64,000 nucleotides of DNA. Source: Candidatus Obscuribacterales bacterium (GTDB lineage: Bacteria; Cyanobacteriota; Vampirovibrionia; Obscuribacterales; Obscuribacteraceae). Where the stretch lies: assembly GCA_019744775.1 (NCBI GenBank), contig JAIETZ010000003.1, forward strand, positions 186,001 through 250,000, in the 5' to 3' direction. Numbering within the stretch: position 1 is the stretch's first letter; each line of letters begins with the position of its first letter. Both the position numbers and the translations under genes were made by a program. The notes under the pieces are model-generated. The model searched no databases. It was not told the DNA's origin and saw only the letters and a list, made by a program, of their open reading frames with translations. Below are positions 9,573-11,287 of this stretch, one piece after another.

Positions 9573-10229
9573 ATGTCTACAGAGACTGGCACAAACCCGG
9601 AAACCAATGTAAACGACATACCGCAAGAAGCCGCTCCCGAGCCGAGCGTCGAGATACCGCGTCCAACCCTTACCCTGAGGGAAGCTGCCGCCATAATGGG
9701 CAAGTCGCTACGTTCACTTGAGCGCAGTATCCTGGGCAAATGGGGCAACAAGCTGCCGGCAGGCTGGTCTGCACGTAAGATAGACACCGAGTCAGGTCAA
9801 GAATGGCGAATCATCCCGCCTCCAGGGTTTCGCTTAAGACATATCTTCTCGGATGCTAATGAGACTGCCGAATCAAATGACGAAATGGAAAAGCCGGTAG
9901 AAACAAAACGCCGTTTGCCGCGCCAACTAAATTCCTCTATCGAGAGTCCGGCTATTGTTATAGACCGCACTGATGAAGTAGAAAATCTTTTGCGCGAACT
10001 TCTGCAAGTGCAAAGACAGCTTTCCGAGGAAAGACGCCTGCGCATGGAGGACCTCCGTCTGATAACCCAGATGCAGGGTTCAATGAGATTGCTTGAAACC
10101 AATGCCAATGAGACTAGCCGTCTGAAAGAAGAGTTGGTGCTTGTGAAAAACGAATTCCAATCTCTGAAAGTTGACTATTTGGCTGTTGTCAACGCTCCCT
10201 GGTGGAAGCGCTTATTCAAGCAAAAGTAA
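9573..10229 (+). CDS. Helix-turn-helix and coiled-coil protein, function unknown
   Basis: A 218-aa protein with an N-terminal acidic tail, a small HTH-like domain at about 30-85 ('LTLREAAAIMGKSLRSLER', followed by a Trp-rich 'wing' and 'GQEWRI'), a variable linker, and a Glu/Arg-rich coiled coil at about 140-205 ending in 'PWWKRLFKQK'. The layout resembles excisionase/MerR-type DNA-binding heads joined to a coiled coil, so a DNA-binding role is inferred. The frame is open from 9486, but the likely promoter at 9526-9534 points to the ATG at 9573 (or 9555). The SelW-like gene begins 29 bp downstream, suggesting one transcript. Confidence 0.7.
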   Translation: MSTETGTNPETNVNDIPQEAAPEPSVEIPRPTLTLREAAAIMGKSLRSLERSILGKWGNKLPAGWSARKIDTESGQEWRIIPPPGFRLRHIFSDANETAESNDEMEKPVETKRRLPRQLNSSIESPAIVIDRTDEVENLLRELLQVQRQLSEERRLRMEDLRLITQMQGSMRLLETNANETSRLKEELVLVKNEFQSLKVDYLAVVNAPWWKRLFKQK

Positions 10230-10258
10230 ATAAGTCCAGCAAATAAGTGGAGAGGGTA

Positions 10259-10594
10259 ATGAGTCAAGCTGACGCGTTTGTAATTACATATTGTGGTGCT
10301 TGAGGTTACAGGCAACGGGCTGTCAGGTTGGCAGCCGAGTTAGAAGTACAGCTTGGTCTCAATTCAGAACTCAATCAAGGTTCTGGCGGCATCTTTGAAG
10401 TTGAGTACCAAGGACAAAACGTTTTTTCCAAGAAAGCATTCAACCGCTTTCCGGAAGACGGAGAGGTGGTGGCGATAGTGACACTTATGGGACAGGGAAT
10501 GTCACTCAAAGAAGCACAGGATAAGGCTGCTGAGGGAATTGCACAGGGACCATCTTTCATGGAATGGTTGAGCAAATTCTTCAAAAAGGACTAA
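10259..10594 (+). CDS. SelW-like selenoprotein with in-frame TGA (selenocysteine)
   Basis: Read with the TGA at 10301-10303 as selenocysteine, the gene gives 111 residues of the SelT/SelW/SelH (Rdx) thioredoxin-like family. The N-terminus is 'ITYCGAUGYRQRAVRLAAEL', which is the family redox motif CxxU followed by GY and R; the rest has 'GGIFEVEYQG', 'VFSKKAFNRFP' and 'EDGEVV', all family hallmarks. U is residue 15, C is residue 12. Starting instead at the TTG at 10328 would remove the active site and the first beta-strand of the domain, so decoding of TGA is the better reading. ATG 10259 has GGAG at 10249-10252. A SECIS-like hairpin follows the TGA. Lies between the HTH gene and cmk with short gaps. 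No selA/B/C/D gene is present in this window. Confidence 0.85.
10318..10336 (+). promoter_or_regulatory. Bacterial SECIS-like hairpin
   Basis: GGCTG (10318-10322) pairs with CAGCC (10332-10336); T-G and C-G pairs extend the stem to a loop AGGTT (10325-10329). The loop Gs are about 22 nt after the TGA, inside the 16-37 nt range of bacterial SECIS elements, and the loop is close to the AGGUCU loop of E. coli fdhF. Known role: binding SelB with the selenocysteyl-tRNA. Confidence 0.75.
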
Positions 10595-10600
10595 AAACTT

Positions 10601-11287
10601 TTGGCTGAGCAAAGAGATCTGGTGATTGCCATTGATGGACCGGCAGGCGCCGGTAAATCGACAGTGGCGCAAATGGTGGCACAGAAACTCCAATACCTTT
10701 ACTTGGATACCGGTGCTATGTACCGCGCGGTCACCTATCTTGTAGTGAAGCGCGGTGTCAATCCGGATGATGAAAATGCTGTGACGGAAACAGCCAGACA
10801 GGCAGATATTGAACTTAAGAGCAGTGTCGATGGCTCAGGCAAACCGAGAGTGTTTGTCAATGGTGAAGAGATAACAGACAAGATTCGCACAAGGGAAATT
10901 TCCAATCTGGTCAGTCCTTTGTCGGCAATTGCGTCAGTGCGTTCAATTCTTGTTGATCAACAAAGAAAGCTCGCTGCCGGCGGCAAAGTTGTCTTGGATG
11001 GACGTGATATCGGCACTGTTGTTTTGCCGAATGCCGATGTAAAAATATTTCTGACGGCGTCTTCTGAAGAACGCGCCAGAAGAAGACTGAAGGATCTCGA
11101 GAAATCAGGCGAGACGGCCGATTTCCAGGAATTACTTGCTGAAATCGAAGCACGCGACAAGCGTGACTCAACAAGAGAAGTGGCACCTTTAAAAGTTGCC
11201 GATGGCGGTATCGTCGTCGACACCGATAGTCTGACAATTGATCAAGTCGTGGGCAAGATTTTAGATATTTGCGCTACGAAGAATTAG
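10601..11287 (+). CDS. cmk: Cytidylate kinase
   Basis: Phosphorylates CMP and dCMP with ATP to give CDP and dCDP in pyrimidine nucleotide salvage. The 228-aa product has the P-loop 'GPAGAGKST' at residues 13-21, 'YLDTGAMYRAV', the CMP-binding insert typical of the long bacterial form, 'VVLDGRDIGTVV' and the lid region 'ERARRRL'. TTG start, 6 bp after the SelW-like gene and with AAGGA about 11 nt upstream, so probably translated from the same message. The stop is 1 bp from the end of the convergent helicase gene. Confidence 0.95.
   Translation: MAEQRDLVIAIDGPAGAGKSTVAQMVAQKLQYLYLDTGAMYRAVTYLVVKRGVNPDDENAVTETARQADIELKSSVDGSGKPRVFVNGEEITDKIRTREISNLVSPLSAIASVRSILVDQQRKLAAGGKVVLDGRDIGTVVLPNADVKIFLTASSEERARRRLKDLEKSGETADFQELLAEIEARDKRDSTREVAPLKVADGGIVVDTDSLTIDQVVGKILDICATKN

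Follow-up and report, generated by a model that had tools for sequence, protein, structure and literature searches.

The gene at 10259-10594 of the window (the whole 64,000-nucleotide stretch of DNA that was analysed, located in contig C3 of a 4.10-Mb genome, G000, that is 97.8% complete) is, judging from its sequence, almost certainly a SelW-like selenoprotein gene of the Rdx family. Its single in-frame TGA is very probably read as selenocysteine (Sec), because the genome has the whole Sec machinery and dozens of relatives keep both the TGA and the hairpin that follows it. The host, a non-photosynthetic relative of cyanobacteria, belongs to the Obscuribacterales, an order that the NCBI taxonomy assigns to Candidatus Melainabacteria, part of the Cyanobacteriota/Melainabacteria group. 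The significance of the gene is threefold: a complete Sec trait together with a SelW-like protein extends across one family of this order; one locus holding either Sec with a predicted SECIS element or Cys without it offers a natural experiment; and the case serves as a warning that the active sites of such proteins are dropped by gene callers. The features of the locus and of the Sec machinery are collected in Table 1.

Table 1. Features of the rdx locus (window positions) and Sec machinery genes found in the same genome.
Feature	Position	Strand	Details
Upstream gene (HTH/coiled-coil in the first-pass annotation)	9573..10229	+	Homologue 5' of rdx in most orthologous loci
Shine-Dalgarno-like GGAGAGG	10248..10254	+	Seen in the sequence, just 5' of ATG 10259
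Predicted selW-like (rdx) selenoprotein gene	10259..10594	+	111 aa with TGA as Sec; stop TAA 10592-10594
Predicted CxxU active-site motif, C-G-A-U (TGT GGT GCT TGA)	10292..10303	+	C12-G-A-U15
In-frame TGA, codon 15, very probably read as selenocysteine	10301..10303	+	TGA in 24 best-match homologues, TGC/TGT in 6
Bacterial SECIS hairpin, predicted	10318..10336	+	8-bp stem, GGU apical loop 10326-10328
cmk, (d)CMP kinase	10601..11287	+	TIGR00017 270 bits; 6 nt after rdx stop
selB	same genome		368 bits, cut-off 242; C-terminal winged helix SelB-wing_3 present
selA	same genome		502 bits, cut-off 268
selD	same genome		360 bits, cut-off 125; no TGA interruption; followed by yedF (TIGR03527)
tRNA-Sec	same genome, one copy		72 bits, gathering 47; anticodon TCA (ARAGORN)

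Apart from the one TGA, the reading frame is open throughout, and translation around that codon (MSQADAFVITYCGA-TGA-GYRQ...) yields flanks that are parts of one Rdx/SelW protein. With the TGA read through, the product is matched by PF10262 at 60.2 bits (cut-off 22.6, E = 2.2e-16) and by TIGR02174 at 52.9 bits (cut-off 34.2, E = 3.3e-14), in agreement with the first-pass annotation, which had placed a single TGA at the U of a CxxU motif in a SelW-family frame. The top NCBIfam match by E-value (7.8e-21) is NF041051 SelTWH_Campy, an equivalog assignment that was rejected at 74.1 bits, below the model cut-off of 88. Across the protein alignment, Cys12 and Sec/Cys15 are invariant. A mechanical open reading frame (ORF) caller reported 10328-10594 only, starting from TTG, so that the active site is missing, as had been anticipated in the first-pass annotation; the accompanying claim that annotation hides such genes is borne out mechanically and by a comparable truncation in a public record of Thermomicrobium roseum. 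In that organism, the plasmid NC_011961.1 (L087:519-521) carries an Rdx gene in which a TGA occupies the CxxU position, with a weak hairpin 3' of it, and the public coding sequence WP_012642931.1 begins 3' of the TGA, which leaves the active site absent. The search of plasmids gave one distant relative.

The AlphaFold model, built with 16 homologues, has a pLDDT that averages more than 90 across residues 11-90 and sets the CxxU motif after strand 1, with strand 7-12 followed by helix 18-32, both at pLDDT above 90. The top 23 Foldseek matches all belong to the SelW family or MIEN1, mouse SelW (2npb) included, and sequence-profile matches to SelW-family structures in the PDB also contain 2npb. 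The fold is shared with the solved structures 2oka, 2obk, 2fa8, 3dex, 2p0g, 2npb and MIEN1 (2ljk) over approximately 65-95 aligned columns, whereas sequence identity to them is low, at about 21-35%. From fold and motif, the protein would be a thiol/selenol oxidoreductase with a thioredoxin-like fold, in which Cys12 and Sec15 would sit in the loop that joins strand 1 to helix 1 and could alternate between the reduced state and a selenylsulfide; thiol/selenol redox chemistry is thus a likely role for the Rdx protein. The function of SelW-like proteins has been called unclear in the literature (PMC1088965).

In the genomic neighbourhood, cmk lies 3' of rdx in most orthologous loci, and the upstream gene belongs to no Pfam or NCBIfam family found by profile searches; the upstream gene, rdx and cmk probably form one operon here. 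The short distance between rdx and cmk in the window, together with a gene order that is conserved in the family, would suit a UGA acting mainly as a selenium sensor, whereby Sec insertion controls translation of the gene and onward into cmk. Such a regulatory purpose is improbable, since the same gap widens to several hundred bases or about 1 kb in many relatives, the gene order is unchanged in forms that carry Cys, and the CxxU motif already constitutes a complete active site.

The proposal that the TGA encodes a catalytic Sec draws much of its strength from homologues. A search of 146 relatives returned matches in 38 genomes; each of the best 24 matches has exactly one TGA, found on reading to occupy the same codon, and six other homologues that were read have TGC or TGT there, which answers the question of Cys replacement raised in the first-pass annotation. 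Fifteen regions in 15 genomes of the family hold additional TGA copies followed by a hairpin of the same type, two of the regions (G006 and G027) lying at the cmk locus. The upstream gene and/or cmk adjoin rdx in 23 of the 24 TGA homologues (the exception being L039) and in all six Cys homologues; as both forms occupy the HTH-rdx-cmk locus, this one conserved site carries Sec in some genomes and Cys in others. The Cys forms are nested inside the Sec forms in the tree, where support for deep branches is weak. At five loci of genera g11 and g13 (L048, L049, L051, L052 and L053), Cys stands at the HTH-rdx-cmk locus while selB and a second, TGA-containing Rdx copy are retained; Sec and Cys seem to have been exchanged there in genomes that kept the Sec trait. 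Farther away in the phylum, genomes that have selA (families f12 and f22) also possess Rdx genes with one TGA; three distant-family genes that were read show TGA at CxxU followed by a hairpin, and a fourth (L085) does likewise. Among non-Obscuribacterales families of the phylum, selA above the cut-off was observed together with a single-TGA Rdx gene in G146, G150, G156, G162 and G164.

Substitution rates in near relatives bear on the possibility that the TGA is a true stop, in which case the locus would be a decayed gene or encode a 14-residue peptide, with the remainder, if expressed, starting from TTG 10328. The truncated call of the ORF caller fits such a stop, as does the fact that TGA is the normal terminator of 5 of the 33 long ORFs in the window. 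However, the stretches flanking the TGA are both under purifying selection in comparisons with near relatives (G001 and G002): dN is 0.006 against a dS of 0.11 downstream of the TGA between G000 and G001, members of the same genus, and between G000 and G002 the corresponding values are 0.105 against 0.40 upstream, a stretch of 9 codons only, and 0.17 against 0.80 downstream. Moreover, the TGA is fixed in the 24 homologues despite protein divergence to about 50% identity, its sole replacement among the homologues read is Cys, and a start at 10328 would delete the CxxU motif together with strand 1. Genuine termination at this codon is consequently very unlikely.

The sequence that follows the TGA has the form of a bacterial SECIS element, as the first-pass annotation had proposed for a hairpin about 22 nt downstream. 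Published constraints for bacterial SECIS elements (PMC13188914) comprise an apical loop of 3-9 nt, an upper stem of 4-16 bp, a G in the first two loop positions, a distance of 16-37 nt from the UGA and a minimum free energy (MFE) of at most -7.5 kcal/mol. The predicted hairpin, with stem strands GGCTGTCA/TGGCAGCC and the loop GGT, falls within every one of these limits, at 3 nt, 8 bp, GG, 22 nt and -13.8 kcal/mol, the last value being the fold energy of the 51 nt from the UGA. Folded alone, 10295-10350 reaches z = -2.6 against dinucleotide shuffles; when the same peptide is recoded with shuffled synonymous codons, the window hairpin does not stand out in energy (p = 0.27), and 5.6% of such shuffles form a hairpin of at least 7 bp with an apical G. 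The hairpin in a single sequence is weak evidence, whereas the comparative signal is strong. Across the 24 homologues, codons +7 to +9 after the TGA (V-R-L), counted only where the homologue has that amino acid, are GTC in 20 of 20, AGG in 20 of 20 and TTG in 21 of 24, and neighbouring codons vary normally; AGG makes up 5% of Arg codons in the genes of the window. In the homologue alignment, 94.6% of pairing cells pair, compared with 88.9% in shuffles, and 13 cells are changed on both sides, compared with 4.8 in shuffles, none of 500 shuffles reaching 13; these both-side changes are confined to two of the eight pairs, and shared ancestry inflates covariation counts. When the partner strand is slid, pairing falls to 14-58%. 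The six Cys homologues keep 3 to 7 of the 8 pairs, and the leading loop G is gone in five of them. By these alignments, the predicted hairpin is conserved beyond the needs of the encoded protein.

A decoding apparatus for such a signal is present. The first-pass annotation had singled out a lack of SelB and tRNA-Sec as decisive against Sec; selA, selB, selD and tRNA-Sec were all found, and the Sec machinery of the genome is complete. By analogy with the pathway known from bacteria, SelB-GTP loaded with Sec-tRNA-Sec would bind the mRNA hairpin and Sec would be inserted once the UGA enters the ribosomal A site, giving the full-length protein, while translation would stop after 14 residues without selenium. 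Alternatively, the UGA might be decoded by near-cognate readthrough or under a reassigned code (e.g., as Trp) in place of Sec, for no other stop interrupts the frame and readthrough alone would also yield a full-length product; this is highly improbable, because ordinary genes here end in TGA, the Sec machinery is at hand, the position is that of a redox residue which is otherwise Cys, and a SECIS-type hairpin is conserved in the TGA forms only. That the TGA is a misread or misassembled TGC, TGT or TGG, a concern of the first-pass annotation for which one change from the TGC/TGT of Cys homologues would suffice as the smallest error, has a negligible probability, as dozens of separate assemblies show the identical TGA together with the hairpin that Cys forms have lost.

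The Sec trait and the TGA-containing Rdx gene also tend to occur together. Among the 146 relatives, selB scores above the cut-off in 40, all of the same order. Across 50 family genomes, selB is present in 32 of the 36 that have a TGA-Rdx gene and in 5 of the 14 that do not (Fisher p = 3.5e-4; 32 with both, 4 with TGA only, 5 with selB only and 9 with neither), where G031, its TGA match listed with an extra TAA, was scored as TGA. The genomes with a TGA-Rdx gene and no selB above the cut-off (G025, G031, G041 and G045) are 92, 83, 70 and 75% complete, respectively. In three genomes of family f2 of the same order (G050, G051 and G052), selB is above the cut-off and the Rdx gene was not found; hence, selenoproteins of other kinds are to be expected in them.

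Run on the genome, a SECIS covariance model recovered the 10259-10594 gene only and therefore cannot list other selenoproteins; among its next hits (E = 0.4 to 0.9), which were rejected, the best ones lack a long coding frame that extends to either side of a TGA. A second candidate was observed in the same genome outside the window (L086:834-1412, G000:C2), an AhpD-like peroxidase-related gene (TIGR01926, 113.5 bits, cut-off 81.8) that has one TGA (L086:1125) at the U of C-H-Y-U, a motif that aligns with the CxxC of PDB 3c1l. The TGA of this candidate is followed by a strong hairpin (-18.9 kcal/mol), the MFE loop of which is without the usual leading G, and an OsmC-like gene comes after the candidate. 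The genome's peroxiredoxin-type (PF00578) and molybdopterin oxidoreductase (PF00384) genes are free of internal TGA codons.

Reviews of prokaryotic selenium use (PMC1794560, 2006; PMC9312934, 2022) describe Cyanobacteria as apparently lacking selenocysteine. A proteome survey (PMC9529120) mentions in passing a single Sec-containing protein of a Candidatus Melainabacteria; in the open-access literature, this was the only mention of selenocysteine in Melainabacteria that was found, and no paper on Sec in Obscuribacterales, Obscuribacter or Vampirovibrionia was found there. One tentative scenario, to which somewhat less than an even chance is given, is that Sec use with a SelW-like core member may be an old trait of the non-photosynthetic Cyanobacteriota/Melainabacteria branches, one that has persisted in Obscuribacterales and a few other families but disappeared elsewhere, with replacement of Sec by Cys at the HTH-rdx-cmk locus in some genera.

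SelW-like selenoproteins are already known in bacteria, and a SELENOW-like PF10262 protein with CxxU appears in a catalogue of predicted bacterial selenoproteins (PMC13188914); what is unusual is the lineage, in which such proteins are hardly reported. With the bacterial SELENOW-like selenoproteins described previously (PF10262; PMC13188914, PMC1088965, PMC1794560), the predicted protein has in common the Rdx domain and a CxxU motif with Sec in the second position, and, as in those genes, a putative bacterial-type SECIS lies within the coding region, right after the UGA. In contrast to them, the C-terminal tail is longer here, extending about 30 residues past the domain, and the gene resides in a fixed neighbourhood, between an unassigned gene and cmk, in a host lineage of Obscuribacterales.
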